This document shows positions 1 through 5,645 of a DNA stretch of 5,645 bases, piece after piece. Position 1 is the stretch's first letter, and every line of letters starts with the position of its first letter. The DNA comes from Thermoprotei archaeon (GTDB lineage Archaea > Thermoproteota > Methanomethylicia > Nezhaarchaeales > WYZ-LMO8): positions 1 through 5,645 of the forward strand of contig QMSF01000072.1 of NCBI GenBank assembly GCA_003649565.1. The letters run 5' to 3'. The notes below the pieces were generated by a model that did not search any database, had not been told where the DNA came from, and saw only the letters and a list, made by a program, of their open reading frames with translations. The translations under genes and the position numbers were made by a program.

Positions 1-2241
1 GGAGACGAAATAGATTGGAACGAAGACATAGATGGCCTGGGACTTGACACGGATACGGATGAGAACATGATAGACCCTGACTCAGATGGTGACGGTCTCT
101 GGGACGGGTGGGAACCCAATTGGGCTGGGGATGATGATTATGATGATTTGAAGGGGATGACGGACCCGGACTCAGATAACGATGGTCTTTGCGACGGATG
201 GGTGGACGGATACATCTGGGATCCGAAAGCTACAGGTGGAGCGAAGTTTGTTCCTGTGGACAATTCCAATACGTATCACCCCACCGACACCTCAAATGTA
301 TTTGACCCATGGGAAGGGGAAGATTCTAATCTAGATGGGATTAAGCAATCAACGGAAACTGATCCCCTGGACCCTGATTCCGATGACGATATGTTATGGG
401 ACGGCTATGACATAGTGGACGGGGACTCTGTCCGAAGGGGAGAATTATATGAAAATGGAAATACAGCGATGAATGGTATAGTTGAAGGCTTCGTATATAC
501 AAGGATATACATCCCAGGATCAAGTTCCTCGGAACAGCAAGGGGACACTGATCCTTTAAACAGCGACACCGATGATGATGGTATAGAGGATGGGGAGGAG
601 GTGTATGGATGGGTGAAAATCTTAAAGGTTACAAAGCCCTCAAGTGATAGTGATGGCGAAGAAGAACACGTTTATCAAAAATATACAATAATGTCCGATC
701 CTACAAAGAGTGATACGGATATGGATGGTAGCCTATCAGATGGCGAGGAATATGAAAAGAACTGTCTGCCATACACATTGGATACCGACTCTGATGGGTT
801 ATCCGATGTAAAGGAGATTAGCTATGGCACGAACCCATGCCATTACGATACAGACGGAGACCACCTGCCCGATGGAGGTGTTGATGGTTGGTGGAGATTC
901 GGAACGGACCTTTGGAAGATCGGAGATTCCTCATATAGGGACGGAGACATAGATTACTGGGAAGGGGAAGACATAGACGGCGATGGCGTGAAGGATTCTT
1001 ACGAGACGGACCCCACGAAACCGGATACTGACATGGATACAATTAGAGATGGTGTGGAGTATTTCTTTGATCTTAAATATTATTTCATGAACCCCGTTTC
1101 AAACTATGATTATGATGGGGACGGATATCCCAATGCGGTGGATACCGATTCGGATAACGATGGCCTTTATGATTATGAGGAGGATTTAGACGGTGATGGG
1201 GAGATTGATGCAACTACTATTTCTGGTGAAACCTATCCCACTTATGCAACAGCATACGAACCATGTCCATATGACGACGATAGTGATGACGATAATTTAA
1301 TGGACGGAGAGGACGTAGAGGATGAGTACGGAACACTGTTTTATCTTGTGGACTATGATGGTGATGGAAAGATAGCCTCCATGGACAAGGATACTGATGG
1401 TGATGGTGCCCTGGATGATGTCGATCCTGACTCGATTGATTATAATACCCAATGGGATAACGATACAGATGGATTAAACGACAAAGAGGAGAAGTTATAT
1501 GGAACTGACGATAATAACGAAGATTATGATGGCGACGGTGTTTCCGATGGAGATGAGGTCAAGACCTATAACACTAGAGCACCCAATCCCGATTCGGATG
1601 GTGACGGATTGCCAGACGGTTTTGAGATACGCCATTCACCTTATCTAGATCCAAACGACCCTGATGTGGATGATGATGGTCTAGCTGATGGGAGTTTTTT
1701 TGAAGGAGTAGTAGATGGGAATGGAAACCCCATCCCTTTACGATGCAATTGGCTAGATAGCGACGGAGATGGCATATATAATGTAAATGATTTGGATTCT
1801 GATGGGGATGGCTTGGATGATAATATTGAGCTTCATATCTTAAAAGGTCAGGGCACATTTTACGTAAAGAACACTATTGACGGCGACGATGACAACGACT
1901 TAATAATAGATGATGGCGAGATTTGGACTGACACTAATCCTCTTTCTCAAGACTCGGATGGTGACGGACTGCCAGATGGTTGGATAGATGGATGGGGTTA
2001 TGATCACTTAAGCGGCAAATGGAAAATTATAGAACCCCCAGACAGTATTAGACAAGAGAGAGAGGGAGAAGATGTAGATTTAAATGGTTACATATCGAGA
2101 CGGGAAAGTAATCCTATTCTGAAAGATACGGACGGGGATAACATCCAAGATGGGGATGAAATAGAAAAACTCCTGTCAAATCCATGTAGAAAAGATACGG
2201 ATTTCGATGGATTCCACGATAATGTGGATATGTTTCCTGCT
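1..2241 (+). repeat. DxDxDG calcium-binding repeat array with larger internal modules
   Basis: Dozens of DxDxDG or DSDxDGL loops occur, often followed by DG and an aromatic residue or glutamate, as in thrombospondin type 3 repeats, whose Asp side chains bind calcium. Above this short period there is a longer one. Three modules share the order DxDxDxL..DG.VDG(W/Y), a variable spacer, EGEDxDxxG, then E(T/S)(D/N)P..xDTDxD. They start near 169, 847 and 1951, and their EGED motifs lie at 313-324, 961-972 and 2062-2073. The spacer is 37-38 residues from repeat start to EGED in the second and third modules and 48 in the first. The array probably forms a rigid stalk. A shorter repeat block recurs at about 2989-3180. 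Confidence 0.85.
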
Positions 2242-3807
2242 GGAAACCTGGAGTTGGCAATAAAAATAAAAGAGATTATTGCATTGGATCCTGTAGATCC
2301 CGATTATAATGGAGCCGACTTTTATACTATTGTCGATTTCTGGTTTAAAGACATGCATAATAATCAATGGATGCCGCTTTACTCCTCAACACCTTACGGC
2401 AAATACTCTCAGATATGGCGATGGAGTCGTCAGGACGAGACCACATGGCAGGATCAGGGGGCAAATGACGATAATATAGTATGGGACCAGGATAACATAA
2501 AAACGCCAAATGAAATAGGAGATAGATTCACATATATTACATGGGGGCTCCCAGATAACGCTGAAATGGTAATGATACGTATACAGCTTTTTGATGATGA
2601 TTATAATAGAGGAACGAGCAAGGATGACAGGTGCGATATTAATAAATCTGACACTCAAGGGAGTGAAGCAGGAAGTGATCCCTGGAACGATGAGGATTAT
2701 AATAATATAGGCAACCCACTCTACAATTTTGGTGAAAGGAGTTTGAACTTGATATATTATCTCGATGGATGCTTCTGGGTAGCTTATGACAGTAACGGAA
2801 ATATTATAGAAGGGTGGTATTATGATAATACTCACCAGTACCATTCAGATAACGATGGTGTTGGATATGCTTGCGGAATAAGTAGCATGGCCGATGGTGA
2901 ACACTATTCCAATAAAAGAGATAAGAATGACAATTGTGCAATATACTTTGATATTTATGTTTCTGATCCCACAAGTGGTGCATACTCGGACGAAGACCAG
3001 GATGGGATTTTAGCTAGAGCGGAGTCATACATCTATGGTACTGATCCCGATAAGAAGGACACCGATGGCGATGGAATGGATGACGGATGGGAAGTAAAAT
3101 ATGGCTTTGAACCAACATATGACAATCATCCTGGTGCCTATGATCATGACTCGGATGGCATTAGTTCCGAGAAAGAATATGTATACCATGACTGGTGTGC
3201 CTTGCCTGATAGAAAAGATATTTTTGTGGAGGTAGATTGGATGAAAGGACATAAAATGAAAGAGAAAGCAAAAATTCTGGTAATCAGAGCCTTTGCGAGG
3301 CATGATATCTCACTGCACATAGATGACGGATGCATGGGTGGGGGAACAAATGTACCTATGCAATCATCAAATACTTTTTCATATCCCTCAGATTGGGATA
3401 ATTATTATAATAGTCATTTCTTAAAATTGAAAAGTGGTAGTGCATCACATAGAGATGGTGTATTTCATTATTGCTTAATGGCAAAATCAAAAGCACCCGG
3501 GTCGAATTCTAGGGGACAAGGGGGTTGTCCTGGATATAGTGGGCACACCGATATGTTTGTTACATATGATATGAAATCATTAAGTAGTAAAAATCAGGTT
3601 AATGGTTTTATTCATGAATTGGGACATAATTTACTTGGGTTGATTGATTCAACACATCAATCTACCCAAAAAGGTGATACTGCACCAACAACACATTGTA
3701 ATGATCCAGATTGTGCGATGTATTATAAATTAAATGAAAATAGTAATTATTGTGATCATTGTTGGAATGAATTAAGCAGAGATGGATTAGGATTAGGATT
3801 ACCATAA
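1..3807 (+). CDS. Giant secreted calcium-binding repeat protein with C-terminal archaemetzincin-like zinc metalloprotease domain (5' partial)
   Basis: The frame is open from base 1, so the true start and any signal peptide lie upstream; 1268 residues are visible. Counting residues from base 1, about 1-748 are Asp-rich DxDxDG repeats of the thrombospondin type 3 kind. About 749-990 look like a C2-like beta-sandwich (LDPVDPDYNGADFY near its start, an IQLFDDDYNRG strand and DDRCDI later). About 997-1060 are a second short repeat block. The protease domain follows: KDIFVEVDWM, the family-like motif LHIDDGCMGGGT (from residue 1105), HELGH (1205-1209) and a Cys-rich tail. HCxxxxCxM plus CxxC matches the archaemetzincin zinc signature, but about 17 extra residues separate GL from HC. 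The protein is presumably exported, calcium-stabilised and proteolytic at the cell surface; the substrate is unknown. The last 450 bases are much more AT-rich than the rest. A lipoprotein gene follows after 11 bp. The protease call is firm; the C2-like call is moderate. Confidence 0.9.
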   Translation, partial: GDEIDWNEDIDGLGLDTDTDENMIDPDSDGDGLWDGWEPNWAGDDDYDDLKGMTDPDSDNDGLCDGWVDGYIWDPKATGGAKFVPVDNSNTYHPTDTSNVFDPWEGEDSNLDGIKQSTETDPLDPDSDDDMLWDGYDIVDGDSVRRGELYENGNTAMNGIVEGFVYTRIYIPGSSSSEQQGDTDPLNSDTDDDGIEDGEEVYGWVKILKVTKPSSDSDGEEEHVYQKYTIMSDPTKSDTDMDGSLSDGEEYEKNCLPYTLDTDSDGLSDVKEISYGTNPCHYDTDGDHLPDGGVDGWWRFGTDLWKIGDSSYRDGDIDYWEGEDIDGDGVKDSYETDPTKPDTDMDTIRDGVEYFFDLKYYFMNPVSNYDYDGDGYPNAVDTDSDNDGLYDYEEDLDGDGEIDATTISGETYPTYATAYEPCPYDDDSDDDNLMDGEDVEDEYGTLFYLVDYDGDGKIASMDKDTDGDGALDDVDPDSIDYNTQWDNDTDGLNDKEEKLYGTDDNNEDYDGDGVSDGDEVKTYNTRAPNPDSDGDGLPDGFEIRHSPYLDPNDPDVDDDGLADGSFFEGVVDGNGNPIPLRCNWLDSDGDGIYNVNDLDSDGDGLDDNIELHILKGQGTFYVKNTIDGDDDNDLIIDDGEIWTDTNPLSQDSDGDGLPDGWIDGWGYDHLSGKWKIIEPPDSIRQEREGEDVDLNGYISRRESNPILKDTDGDNIQDGDEIEKLLSNPCRKDTDFDGFHDNVDMFPAGNLELAIKIKEIIALDPVDPDYNGADFYTIVDFWFKDMHNNQWMPLYSSTPYGKYSQIWRWSRQDETTWQDQGANDDNIVWDQDNIKTPNEIGDRFTYITWGLPDNAEMVMIRIQLFDDDYNRGTSKDDRCDINKSDTQGSEAGSDPWNDEDYNNIGNPLYNFGERSLNLIYYLDGCFWVAYDSNGNIIEGWYYDNTHQYHSDNDGVGYACGISSMADGEHYSNKRDKNDNCAIYFDIYVSDPTSGAYSDEDQDGILARAESYIYGTDPDKKDTDGDGMDDGWEVKYGFEPTYDNHPGAYDHDSDGISSEKEYVYHDWCALPDRKDIFVEVDWMKGHKMKEKAKILVIRAFARHDISLHIDDGCMGGGTNVPMQSSNTFSYPSDWDNYYNSHFLKLKSGSASHRDGVFHYCLMAKSKAPGSNSRGQGGCPGYSGHTDMFVTYDMKSLSSKNQVNGFIHELGHNLLGLIDSTHQSTQKGDTAPTTHCNDPDCAMYYKLNENSNYCDHCWNELSRDGLGLGLP
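3313..3357 (+). repeat. Copy 1 of the 44-bp LHIDDGCMGGGT segment, inside the metalloprotease gene
   Basis: Bases 3314-3357 reappear at 5565-5608 with 41 of 44 identities; the first 31 bases are identical and the three differences are all A here and G in the second copy. Both are read in the same frame. The flanking codon is Leu in both copies (CTG here, TTG there). Upstream flanks are unrelated and downstream flanks diverge. The segment encodes a Gly-rich motif that I believe is conserved among related archaeal secreted metalloproteases. It sits exactly where the gene changes from moderate to low GC. Confidence 0.9.
3613..3762 (+). other. Zinc-binding active-site region of the metalloprotease
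   Basis: HELGH at 3613-3627 supplies two zinc-binding His residues and the catalytic Glu. It is followed by NLLGLIDSTH, then an extra stretch, then HC at 3694-3699, Cys at 3712, CxM ending in Met at 3718-3720, and CxxC at 3751-3762. Archaemetzincins carry HExxHxxGxxHC, then C after four residues, CxM, and a later CxxC that binds a second structural zinc. Here the third His ligand is either His at 3655 or, more in line with the family, His at 3694, which needs an insertion. The spacing from Met to the final CxxC is 10 residues, shorter than the 17 usual in archaemetzincins. Confidence 0.8.
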
Positions 3808-3818
3808 GGGGGAATGAT

Positions 3819-4343
3819 ATGGAAAAGAAGCTACTATCCATCATCACTTTCGTAATAATTATCATTATATTATGCTGTGGATGTATTAAAAACGATAATT
3901 GTGATAATTCGCATGATAAAAAAGAAGAATTTTTAGTTATACGAATAGAATCGATAGATATTATCAATAAGACTAATATTTTAAAACCGATTAATATCTA
4001 TTTTCAATTGGATGAGGATAAAAAGAATATCACGTATAATGAAACTCAATGGACAAATGAAATTCGCCTTGATTTATTAAATGCTGATGAGAAATATTTC
4101 TTTAATGTTTCATTATCCAATGAAAAGTATATTTTTCGATTTGCTGGAAAGTATTCTTTTTTCAATGGACATATACATTTCAAGAATGAAATGATATCTA
4201 TTGATATAAATCCACAATTTAAAGCATCATATGAAATTGAGAAGAATAAATTATATTCAGACAATCAAGGTTTCAATATTAATATTACTGGTGAAGATGG
4301 TAGTATTGAGATATTAATAGCAATTGAACATACGCCACCGTAG
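3819..4343 (+). CDS. Small secreted lipoprotein of unknown function, downstream partner of the metalloprotease
   Basis: The 174-residue product starts with MEKK, then a long hydrophobic stretch rich in Ile (residues 5-18), then CCGC. Cys22 preceded by Gly is a plausible lipid-anchor site, although position -3 is Cys rather than the usual Leu, so the lipobox is atypical. The mature part looks beta-rich and carries several N-glycosylation sequons (N50KT, N70IT, N74ET, N96VS, N155IT), fitting an extracellular protein. The gene begins 11 bp after the protease stop, with a G-rich ribosome binding site at 3808-3812 that sets the start at 3819 rather than the out-of-frame ATG at 3814. It shares the low GC of the protease tail and may have travelled with it. 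I do not recognise the family. A role as anchor, chaperone or inhibitor of the protease is only a guess from position. Confidence 0.8.
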   Translation: MEKKLLSIITFVIIIIILCCGCIKNDNCDNSHDKKEEFLVIRIESIDIINKTNILKPINIYFQLDEDKKNITYNETQWTNEIRLDLLNADEKYFFNVSLSNEKYIFRFAGKYSFFNGHIHFKNEMISIDINPQFKASYEIEKNKLYSDNQGFNINITGEDGSIEILIAIEHTPP

Positions 4344-4358
4344 TAATTATAAGAACGT

Positions 4359-4472
4359 CACTCGCATTGCGACCTGAAATTCGGTCGCCGGACTGACATG
4401 TGAAATTGCCCGAAAGGGTGAGAAAACATGTCCGGTCTGTAGATGCGCAATTTGTGAGTTTCCACTCGCAAT
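4359..4472 (+). ncRNA. Compact structured RNA element between convergent genes
   Basis: The sequence folds by eye into a three-way junction. P1 is 4363-4367 with 4443-4447. P2 is GCGACC 4369-4374 with GGTCGC 4383-4388. P3 is CGGAC 4389-4393 with 4430-4434, then a TGAC bulge, then ATGT 4398-4401 with ACAT 4426-4429, a symmetrical GAAA/GAAA internal loop, and TTGCCC 4406-4411 with GGGTGA 4416-4421 capped by a GAAA tetraloop. An 8-bp hairpin follows (4452-4459 with 4464-4471, loop TTCC). Several pairs are G-U only when the plus strand is read, so the plus strand is the likely RNA. It could be a small RNA, a riboswitch-like leader without an obvious downstream gene, or a 3' UTR element of the lipoprotein mRNA. 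I cannot assign it to a known family. Confidence 0.55.
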
Positions 4473-4517
4473 AACAATGTCCAAGAGGATGTGCAAGAAA
4501 AACTATGTCGGAGGTGA

Positions 4518-4844
4518 TCAGTCAGGAATGATGAATTGTTCCAAATAAGATCGAATCTCATCAATATCTGATGGAAGCTTGGAACAATCAACAATGATGA
4601 TCTCATAACCTGTCACCCTGTACTGCTCGATCTTCCGGTTCCGGTATTTCTTGGAAACATGGAACTCGATCTCATACAAGGTCCTTGTTGTCTTATCGCA
4701 GAGATCGACATATCCGTTGGGGATCTTCCACTCGGCTGATACTTCATGCTTCATGTCTCTGAGGATCCAGAACAGGATCGCTTTGGCAACGAAATGCTTG
4801 TAGGATTCGTTCGACAGCTTTGTAAGATGGTTTGGCCAGCTCAT
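4518..4844 (-). CDS. Small PD-(D/E)xK-like nuclease family protein
   Basis: The 108-residue protein has the order expected of a minimal restriction-endonuclease-like fold: an N-terminal helix (SNESYKHFVAKAILFWILRD), the strand EVSAEWKIPNGYVDL with Asp47, the strand LYEIEF with Glu58 and Glu60, a basic helix KKYRNRKIEQY, and the strand GYEIIIVD. In this superfamily Asp and Glu bind the metal. The usual (D/E)xK is ExE here, so the catalytic Lys may have moved to Lys65, Lys66 or Lys71, or activity may be lost. The start is well supported: AGGAGGT on the minus strand at 4859-4853, 8 nt before ATG. The gene runs convergently to the lipoprotein gene and ends before a short T-run on its strand (4502-4498). 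DNA repair, mobile-element or defence roles are all possible; no partner gene is visible. Confidence 0.72.
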   Translation of the reverse strand: MSWPNHLTKLSNESYKHFVAKAILFWILRDMKHEVSAEWKIPNGYVDLCDKTTRTLYEIEFHVSKKYRNRKIEQYRVTGYEIIIVDCSKLPSDIDEIRSYLEQFIIPD

Positions 4845-4852
4845 TGATTTAT

Positions 4853-4859
4853 ACCTCCT
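4853..4859 (-). promoter_or_regulatory. Strong Shine-Dalgarno site of the nuclease gene
   Basis: Read on the minus strand the site is AGGAGGT, a full match to the anti-Shine-Dalgarno core, with 8 nt to the ATG at 4844. It fixes the start and marks the gene as translated from a leadered mRNA. Confidence 0.85.
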
Positions 4860-4862
4860 GAA

Positions 4863-4893
4863 GATCTTTCATCGGAGGATTACGGGAAAGATC
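4863..4893 (-). promoter_or_regulatory. 8-bp inverted repeat just upstream of the nuclease ribosome binding site
   Basis: GATCTTTC at 4863-4870 and GAAAGATC at 4886-4893 are perfect inverted copies around a 15-nt centre. The inner arm ends three bases before the AGGAGGT site. It could be a two-fold operator for a dimeric repressor, or a leader hairpin next to the ribosome binding site. Either would allow expression of the nuclease to be held down. Confidence 0.45.
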
Positions 4894-4929
4894 GGAAGGA
4901 GAATCGAGAACTGAGGAACCGGAAGAAGA

Positions 4930-4941
4930 GAAAATATTTCC
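4930..4941 (-). promoter_or_regulatory. Possible archaeal TATA box for the nuclease gene
   Basis: A short palindromic A/T run, AAATATTT at 4932-4939, lies in otherwise G/C- and purine-rich DNA about 90 bp before the nuclease start. With transcription starting about 25 bp downstream, the leader would be near 60 nt and would include the inverted repeat at 4863-4893. There is no clear purine-rich BRE, so the call is weak. Confidence 0.2.
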
Positions 4942-5292
4942 CTGGTCTCTTCAAGCGTTTTCGAACATAGCGCAGAAGGTGGGAGTGGTTAACGTGGGAA
5001 GTGGATGAACGAAGTGAAGGAACGGTTGGTTGTTGGGTGAGTGTGAGTCGATGATAAGAGTCTCCGAAGGATCCAATGAATAGGGTAGGTGAATGGTACC
5101 TTCGGTAGGATCCGAGGTCAGTGAATTGTCAGCGAGGAAACAAAGGGAAATATTAAAGTTGAAATGTGGATGATAATCCAAAGATCTTACATCTGTTTGA
5201 GGTTGTTTTGCGAAAACGGATGATAAGATTTTTAATGCAATAAAGCCATATAGTTACCGTACAAAGGTTTGTAAAAAATCTGTTCCAATGTG

Positions 5293-5302
5293 GATATATA
5301 TT
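5293..5302 (+). promoter_or_regulatory. TATA-like box upstream of the GC-rich structured region
   Basis: GATATATATT is the best archaeal TATA-box match in the right half of the window. Transcription would be expected to start about 25 bp downstream, near 5322-5330, just before the hairpin-rich block beginning at about 5340. This placement supports that block being an independently transcribed RNA. Confidence 0.35.
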
Positions 5303-5339
5303 CTCAAAGGTATGGTGTATGAAATGAGAGAAGAAATCA

Positions 5340-5563
5340 TGTTCCGGATGACCCGCCCCGAGGAAGGTGAGCGGGGCCTGGGCGTGAGCCACCGCAGGGG
5401 CGGAACCGGGTGGGATTCTTACAGGCGTCCGCCCGAAGGGGCGCACTTGCGGAATTTTCCCGTAGGGAAAAGGGGTGCGAGTGCGACTTCGAAGGCACCT
5501 GGAGTGAAACGGAAGGTGGAGTCGATGCGAGACAAGGGAGCGAAGCGACCGGCCAATAGGAAA
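5340..5563 (+). ncRNA. GC-rich, hairpin-dense region, probably a structured RNA
   Basis: GC content rises to about 75% at its start and stems follow one another. GCCCCG 5355-5360 pairs with CGGGGC 5372-5377. GGC-GTGA-GCC at 5381-5390 has a GNRA-type loop and is enclosed by CCTG 5377-5380 with CAGG 5395-5398. CGCCC 5430-5434 pairs with GGGCG 5439-5443. CGCACTTGCG 5442-5451 pairs with TGCGAGTGCG 5476-5485 around the perfect hairpin TTTTCCC 5455-5461 with GGGAAAA 5465-5471. CGACT 5484-5488 pairs with AGTCG 5520-5524 around CACCT/AGGTG. The wobble pairs point to the plus strand. I cannot fit it to RNase P, SRP RNA or tRNA. The 5480-5550 part has a group II intron domain I flavour, but no domain V or reverse transcriptase is in the window. 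Some of the listed stems share bases and are alternatives. Confidence 0.5.
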
Positions 5564-5564
5564 T

Positions 5565-5608
5565 TGCACATAGATGACGGATGCATGGGTGGGGGGACGA
5601 GTGTACCT
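5565..5608 (+). repeat. Copy 2 of the 44-bp LHIDDGCMGGGT segment
   Basis: It matches 3314-3357 on the same strand at 41 of 44 positions, 2251 bp away. The first 31 bases (5565-5595) are identical; the differences are at 5596, 5599 and 5601, all G in place of A. Direct repeats of this size and spacing can support homologous recombination that deletes or swaps everything between them. Confidence 0.9.
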
Positions 5609-5609
5609 G

Positions 5610-5627
5610 TAGGATCAATCGATCCTA
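5610..5627 (+). other. Perfect 7-bp hairpin right after the repeated segment
   Basis: TAGGATC 5610-5616 and GATCCTA 5621-5627 flank an AATC loop. The hairpin starts two bases after the end of the duplicated 44 bp, at the point where the two copies diverge. It may be a recombination or breakpoint feature, part of the structured RNA extending to the right, or chance within coding sequence. Confidence 0.4.
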
Positions 5628-5645
5628 TCGTTTATCAACCTAGAC

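Follow-up and report, generated by a model that had tools for sequence, protein, structure and literature searches.

Candidate archaeal protease-immunity system with stored C-terminal cassettes that may be exchanged inside the catalytic domain

The contig QMSF01000072.1 of the Thermoprotei archaeon assembly GCA_003649565.1, a stretch of 5,645 nucleotides (the window), encodes a protease with a repeat stalk, a lipoprotein-like protein and, further downstream, the start of a second protease tail that has no stalk (an orphan). The locus is probably best explained as a polymorphic protease-immunity system in which stored C-terminal cassettes are exchanged within the catalytic domain. Of the parts of this explanation, modular exchange is very likely as judged from sequence comparison, the storage of orphan cassettes is highly probable, and a candidate role in protease-immunity conflict is favoured on balance. 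The features of the window are collected in Table 1.

Table 1. Features of the window, in order of position
Feature	Coordinates	Strand	Remarks
Main gene, TSP3-type Asp-rich repeat stalk followed by a metzincin-like protease	1..3807	+	Open reading frame (ORF) of 1268 aa, open at the 5' side; begins outside the window
Retained N-terminal part of the catalytic domain (DIFVEVDW strand and next helix), on the stalk side of the crossover	3175..3312	+	AlphaFold2 model
Signature and putative crossover site, main copy (LHIDDGCMGGG)	3313..3345	+	Repeat and codon comparison
Tail 1 with HELGH zinc motif (3613-3627)	3346..3804	+	Profile and fold searches both rank metzincins first
Lipoprotein-like gene, candidate cognate immunity protein	3819..4343	+	11 nt past the protease stop
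Conserved noncoding DNA, candidate right cassette border	4353..4432	.	84% identity to L005 1627-1706
Right-flank DNA common to other loci	4489..5208	.	Sequence matches
108-aa ORF, weakly PD-(D/E)XK-like	4518..4844	-	Sub-threshold Pfam match; repeated in G014 and G016 units
X, GC-rich header of the orphan cassette	5341..5564	+	Left end not fixed; identity to P0011 back to ~5312
Signature copy 2 and start of orphan tail 2	5564..5645	+	Runs off the window; 27/27 residues identical to P0038

The direct repeat and the divided catalytic domain

A segment of the protease gene recurs 2251 bp downstream on the same strand (3314-3366 and 5565-5617; 87% identity over 53 positions), with a BLAST E value of 1.9e-11 against the collected loci. 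Over the first 44 bases (3314-3357 and 5565-5608) 41 match, and the initial 31 are identical; direct comparison bore out this recurrence, which had been described in an earlier note on the same DNA. The note placed the copies in the same frame, which does not hold literally: 2251 is not a multiple of three, so the copies occupy window frames 1 and 2, each in frame within its own ORF. When 3401-5645 was shuffled 200 times in two-base blocks, which preserve dinucleotide content only roughly, the best 44-mer match reached at most 25 of 44. Both copies encode LHIDDGCMGGG within an open frame. The sequences 5' of the copies are unrelated, again as the note had it, with protease codons ahead of copy 1 and noncoding GC-rich DNA ahead of copy 2.

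The stalk of the main protein matched the Pfam family TSP3_bac (PF18884) with 27.4 bits against a cut-off of 25, and the protease is probably secreted. In the part of the protein within the window, no Pfam match to YD (Rhs) or filamentous haemagglutinin repeats was present, nor was an Ig family among the three Pfam matches of the window protein. A search with the stalk returned 147 proteins; among the best 120, most were TSP3 proteins in which the match took up only a small portion. The ENA contig protein P0001 agrees with the main protein throughout the searched region; its residues 1-6 read MCIRDS, which we take to be the adapter-derived artefact frequent in metagenome proteins, and its N-terminus is probably not real.

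An AlphaFold2 model of a 210-aa piece of the protein (md03fab906646, pLDDT 77.6) contains a strand at residues 14-23, a helix at 30-41 and a second strand at 45-50. The top Foldseek matches were fragilysin and snake-venom metalloproteases (E 2.9e-6, TM 0.57), and the profile matches of the tail were reprolysins and serralysins, with Pfam Reprolysin_5 below threshold only. The tail is modelled as a metzincin-like fold carrying HExxH in the form HELGH. The full metzincin motif is HExxHxxGxxH/D with a Met-turn; relative to it HELGHNLLGLID has one additional residue before the G, and model region 158-169 has a pLDDT below 50. Because the signature falls inside strand 45-50, the stalk gene retains the first strand and helix and the cassette supplies the rest, including HELGH. 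Orphans begin within this modelled strand and have neither strand 14-23 nor helix 30-41, and would be incapable of folding into a full domain.

Homologous loci were found in 15 other genomes, nearly all metagenome-assembled genomes named Thermoplasmatota, Thermoplasmata or Thermoplasmatales, and LHIDDGCMGGG proved to be a signature of this protease family (Thermoplasmatota metalloproteases), which alone could account for a repeat between paralogues. The DNA of the signature, TTGCACATAGATGACGGATGCATGGGTGGGGG, is present in G001, at two G014 loci and in window copy 2, is nearly invariant in the class that carries the system, and differs by few changes in window copy 1, G005 and G017. Codons for the same residue were identical in 176 of 210 comparisons among seven system copies, which are not independent (two come from the window and two from G014), against 311 of 703 among 13 other copies; the latter include G008 of the same class, assigned to them after its DNA had been seen and because that DNA differs. 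Over the 15 codons directly 5' of the signature in four stalk-bearing genes, the same-residue codons were identical in 18 of 42 comparisons. The G014 paralogues C24 and C40 fell outside the search expression, and the signature of C24 has diverged.

A short in-frame insert divides the signature between LHID and DDG/DGC in G008 C110 (L067:133-188) and in P0042, and DNA resembling it also lies 5' of the G017 signature (L093:8165-8220), which suggests a small mobile coding insert that may prefer the signature site. At the G017 locus itself (L093:7992-9767), LHIDDGCLGGG leads into a different metalloprotease (HEFGHYLFWLGEEY), with a lipoprotein-like gene behind it; it is possible that this tail derives from another protease family.

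Recombinant sets, orphan cassettes and the X header

The loci are modular in layout, with a sharp breakpoint at the signature. Like headers precede many tails: the X header of the window (the GC-rich DNA ahead of signature copy 2) and that of P0011 are identical over 84 residues up to the signature, beyond which only the 11 signature residues are alike. The same tail also stands behind two kinds of header. From the second signature onward the window contains only 82 bases, and the encoded orphan tail is identical to P0038 at 27 of 27 residues (11 of them the signature) and at none upstream, where P0038 has stalk-type residues. P0014, with an X header, and P0055, with a stalk, agree at 147 of 148 residues from the signature on and at none before it. 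Among further examples, 142 of 165 tail residues are alike in P0009 (X) and P0042 (stalk), and G008 C110 and P0002 share 44 of 45 tail residues and, in a gapped alignment, 18 of 38 header residues. Different tails on alike stalk-type headers, as the note had envisaged, were seen in P0038/P0055, P0002/P0027 and P0034/P0040 (19-40 header residues). Across 2013 pairs, 110 had alike headers and unlike tails, seven the reverse and three were alike in both; the comparison was ungapped over at most 40 residues per side, so tail identity is understated, and some rows are the same protein twice.

In G014, comparison of the first 4000 bases of the stalk-bearing locus C30 with those of the orphan C26 (BLAST E <= 1e-3) leaves no more than two shared stretches: 37 bp at the signature (97%) and 644 bp past the partner gene (89%). 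The left homology, kept at silent sites, and the right homology flank exactly the tail and its partner gene. The exchangeable unit of tail and lipoprotein gene that the note had proposed is supported; its start, which the note set at 3358, moves to 3313/3314, since the common site begins there and at 5564/5565.

The note's further suggestion, that the sequence from 5565 may be a stored or ousted tail, is strengthened by the recurrence of the stalkless arrangement of X, signature and tail in G014 C26 and in metagenome proteins. Window positions 5416-5564 are 95% identical to G014:C26:344-492, where X leads directly into a protease gene that consists of the tail only; a lipoprotein gene and DNA resembling window 4489-5154 come next. 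Positions 5351-5409 are 78% identical to an orphan header of G016, and headers of the same kind precede orphans from metagenomes. A search with the G014 orphan protein returned 53 proteins, 25 of them with an X-type header and mostly with different tails; P0005, among the 25, is the query's own protein, P0032 and P0036 are atypical, and the header classes were assigned by rough search expressions. When these 53 were combined with P0001-P0003 and eight further rows (64 rows, in which three pairs are the same protein twice), 27 were X-type, 26 stalk-type and 11 neither. Where an X-headed row had 45 header residues or more (23 rows), the 231 pairs with usable tails, among which the window's short orphan does not figure, gave a median identity of 0.85 over the last 20 header residues and 0.32 over the tails; in 123 X-headed pairs the headers were at least 0.75 alike and the tails less than 0.40 alike. 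A single tail is common to P0016, P0029, P0030 and P0046. Relatives accordingly do not all carry the same tail, nor does a stalk precede copy 2 within the window as an ordinary complete paralogue would have it; the note had named a common tail and such a paralogue as outcomes that would refute its proposal. A third such outcome, an assembly artefact at 5564, is very improbable: the window ends close to the repeat and the assembly is possibly short-read, but the same X-signature junction is found in G014, in 95% identical DNA, and in proteins from several sources, and its presence in other assemblies makes an error at this point unlikely.

Two accounts of X itself were not favoured. As a coding leader, X would have had to tolerate five nonsynonymous among its eight substitutions between window and G014, the other three being synonymous. 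The same eight place six changes in unpaired columns and two in one compensatory pair; this evidence for a structure is weak because the structure was derived from the same two sequences. Folding of single X sequences was modest (z -1.9 and -2.2), and a six-row DNA alignment of X elements fell into two groups that were not convincingly aligned. Insertion of X into an intact second gene was not favoured either, as the window has no stalk ahead of X and the G016 elements are preceded by other ORFs. Viral carriage was likewise set aside: the viral_contigs collection held no exact match to a 29-base pattern and no relatives among 41 pattern stretches. Rfam gave no match in the window at E <= 1. 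At L015:1-341 (G014 C26) the end of a group II intron lies inside the X header, beside the point equivalent to 5415/5416; it was identified by Rfam RF00029 at 266-341, together with an ORF that by eye resembles the C-terminus of an intron reverse transcriptase.

The nature of X bears on two other explanations of the orphan. The first is duplication and decay without exchange, the orphan being just what is left of the 3' part of an old paralogue after disruption by repeat elements (X, group II introns and small inserts). X is indeed repeat-like, X-like fragments occur elsewhere in G016, an intron end lies in the X of G014, the G019 locus looks decayed, and inserts are present in or near the signatures of G008, G017 and P0042. 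We nevertheless consider decay quite improbable, given that many orphans across assemblies begin at one and the same codon and have similar headers, that most of their tails bear HExxH and that near-identical tails stand behind stalk-type sequence; it also leaves the silent-site conservation of the signature unexplained. In the second, X, tail and lipoprotein gene move and insert together as one mobile element, and a fusion to a stalk arises only incidentally, when the element inserts at the signature. Related X-like headers before unrelated tail families (G016 and the window) agree with this, as does the dispersal of 4936-5208 in G001 near genes that look by eye like PIN, ParE-type and IS3-type. 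A mobile unit is improbable all the same: no transposase was recognised by eye in it, the repeat listing of the window holds no inverted repeat of at least 18 bases at X, and stalk-type proteins are without X, the hybrid P0032 excepted.

The partner gene, the right flank and a parallel in G016

Behind the protease, an ORF with a hydrophobic N-terminus was found at all 11 in-class loci tested, with a lipobox-like motif in eight; outside the class, 4 of 11 loci had an ORF within 160 nt and one of 11 a lipobox-like motif. Partners were defined as ORFs of at least 90 aa starting -4 to 58 nt past the in-class protease stop, the lipobox was recognised by a simple expression, and three of the in-class loci (G014 C24 and two at C40) are non-cassette as far as seen. 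The partner at G008 C53, in class, is 369 aa long and has no lipobox. An adjacent variable partner gene is thus part of the in-class layout, with a different kind of gene in G016.

A divergent, largely class-specific partner that has a hydrophobic N-terminus and directly follows every in-class tail tested is the arrangement of an effector and its immunity protein, and it tells against a somewhat unlikely alternative in which the same cassette exchange serves another purpose, the specificity of the protease tracking substrates, viruses or predators and the lipoprotein acting as chaperone or anchor. For that alternative speak the lack of a known target of the protease, the equal suitability of a TSP3 stalk and a metzincin fold for nutrient proteases and, in the parts covered of the work on VARTIG in Thermococcales (PMC8416519), the equally open functions of that system.

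Past position 4343 the window is mostly noncoding, apart from the 108-aa ORF on the other strand. The match of 4353-4432 was seen in G005 only, and the matching L005 segment likewise lies directly after the partner gene. Positions 4936-5208 are a dispersed noncoding repeat in G001 and G014, 80-88% identical (L057, L058, L059, L056), the G001 copies often lying near contig ends as well as near the PIN-, ParE-type- and IS3-type-looking genes. The 108-aa ORF matched PDDEXK_9 at E 0.0076 (16.7 bits, under the cut-off of 25.5), and a nuclease match at E <= 0.1 was obtained for three of nine members of its family, so the nuclease label is weak; a profile search with it returned no nuclease of known structure from the PDB, and its model (pLDDT 39) was unusable. 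It occurs in 6 of 389 genomes of the searched phylum, five times in G016 units. Distant paralogues lie at L122, L123, L124 and L127, some beside large secreted- or membrane-looking proteins, and the ORF may serve additional variable loci. A decayed-looking locus in G019 (L094:6216-7748) comprises a partial protease, a lipoprotein-like gene and a 108-aa ORF with an internal TAG. PADLOC gave no match for the protease tail, the lipoprotein or the 108-aa ORF; its single weak match, to Cas11a, was a G016 ORF.

In G016, of the same class, a caspase-like tail belongs to a stalk-bearing gene (5' end beyond the stretch examined), and there are four orphan tails, two of which run into contig ends. The 27-bp border CCGAAACATAACGGTAACGGTGATAAT is common to all five tails, and the orphans have an X-like header in place of the stalk. 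The tails are of at least three types, that of C201 differing from the others, and the orphan tail tested matched Peptidase_C14 below the cut-off. The G016 header matches eight places within this genome, and orphan tails follow the four long matches. That an unrelated protease shows the same layout suggests a cassette mechanism of wider use in this archaeal class.

Proposed exchange and comparison with known systems

The proposed mechanism starts from a gene that carries the stalk and the first strand-helix-strand of the metzincin-like domain, and from a downstream orphan that consists of X, the signature and a different catalytic tail; in G014 the orphan's own lipoprotein gene and conserved DNA come after it. 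The simplest agent to propose, homologous recombination or gene conversion, would act between the ~32-bp signature and the right flank and move tail and lipoprotein gene onto the stalk gene; gene conversion would put one tail on both stalk and orphan, as in P0014/P0055. Such exchange would be ongoing within the population. Orphans would be silent and inactive, because they are without the N-terminal catalytic part and seem to have no export signals. Once exported, the protease would attack other cells as a toxin-like weapon, and the membrane-anchored lipoprotein would shield the producer; the gene orders stalk-tail-lipoprotein and X-tail-lipoprotein fit effector-immunity pairs.

Several points weigh against cassette exchange as proposed. 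Inspection of the units by eye revealed no recombinase, and no family search aimed at one was made. An X-headed query enriches for X-headed matches, whose share is therefore not a measure of frequency. In P0032, stalk-type residues come after an X-like header. The case of G008 and P0002 is confounded by the insert in G008, and four of the seven pairs with the same tail and different headers compare P0046 with other X headers. In P0045 and P0047 the breakpoint lies elsewhere, their 105 common residues (to DIFVEVDWM) ending 31 before DDG. The evidence consists of assemblies, the metagenome proteins coming from unnamed samples; the window ends 37 bases past the 44-bp repeat, and short-read chimeras at the 32-bp repeat could be the source of some of the cases of one tail behind two headers. 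BLAST alignments of more than 70 residues put the likeness among partner proteins, which are putatively matched to their tails, at about 22-33%. In G016 the tail is followed by a ~1130-aa beta-helix/FN3 membrane protein and no lipoprotein, the stalk-bearing tail is 82% identical to C127a, C127b is like C143 as far as the contigs reach, and four of the eight header matches are partial and have no such tail behind them, so that X-like DNA extends beyond cassettes. As for the 108-aa ORF, G005 has a broken copy and none was found in G001.

A bolder form of the proposal would be a dedicated archaeal switching machine in which X, as a functional nucleic-acid element, marks donors, the signature is a DNA site preserved at silent positions for recombination and the 108-aa ORF encodes a nuclease that provokes conversion, one machine serving both the metalloprotease and the caspase-like protease of the sister genome. 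By analogy with mating-type switching, it would reprogram one half of the protease's catalytic domain and the inhibitor with it. This form is doubtful, its probability reduced by the X-like fragments away from tails in G016 and by the failure to find the 108-aa ORF in G001.

Silent-cassette gene conversion, as at vlsE and pilE, joins an expression site with silent donors that have common borders; the tails here are far more different, and the partner gene lies inside the exchanged unit. The comparison with CDI and Rhs systems that the note had drawn stands for the layout and not for homology. In the parts covered of the work on Salmonella rhs, which offers experimental evidence for recombination (Koskiniemi et al. 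2014, PMC3967940), a full-length gene is likewise accompanied by a downstream orphan C-terminal fragment without export signals and by adjoining immunity genes, with recombination at a common segment. That segment measures 522 bp at 95% identity, against about 32-53 bp here. The present system further differs in its archaeal host, a stalk with no Rhs/YD match, a GC-rich orphan header, a lipoprotein-like partner and a protease tail split inside its domain, and recombination is here inferred from sequence.

The polymorphic toxins of Zhang et al. 2012 (PMC3482391), so far as the relevant parts of that survey extend, resemble the system in their constant N-terminal part, variable C-terminal enzyme, solo cassettes and adjoining partner. 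The hallmark of a conserved N-terminal part with different C-terminal domains is seen here, and standalone cassettes share a boundary motif with the full gene in the window, in G014 C26, in 25 of the 53 metagenome proteins and in G016. That survey (PMC3482391) names Imm65 as the sole lipoprotein among the immunity proteins it collected, unlike the 8 of 11 in-class partners with a lipobox-like motif. VARTIG (Makarova et al. 2021, PMC8416519) is also an archaeal long protein with a hypervariable C-terminus, homologous short genes and inferred recombination; it differs in its Ig domains and in exchange inferred between species, and no X-type header is described in the parts of the paper covered. 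In those parts its authors report no close VARTIG-like module in other archaea and describe archaeal polymorphic toxins as not experimentally characterised as of 2021 (PMC8416519).

Archaeal antagonism systems are mostly predicted. Polymorphic toxin systems in archaea are reportedly predicted by Makarova et al. 2019 (mBio). The literature searched, which did not cover that study, held nothing recognised as this protease family, and the novelty of the family is provisional. The system offers a sharp exchange site, natural recombinant sets and candidate protease-inhibitor pairs for laboratory testing. If exchange takes place within the catalytic domain, and toxin domains are not swapped whole, this would be a route of its own to enzyme diversification.

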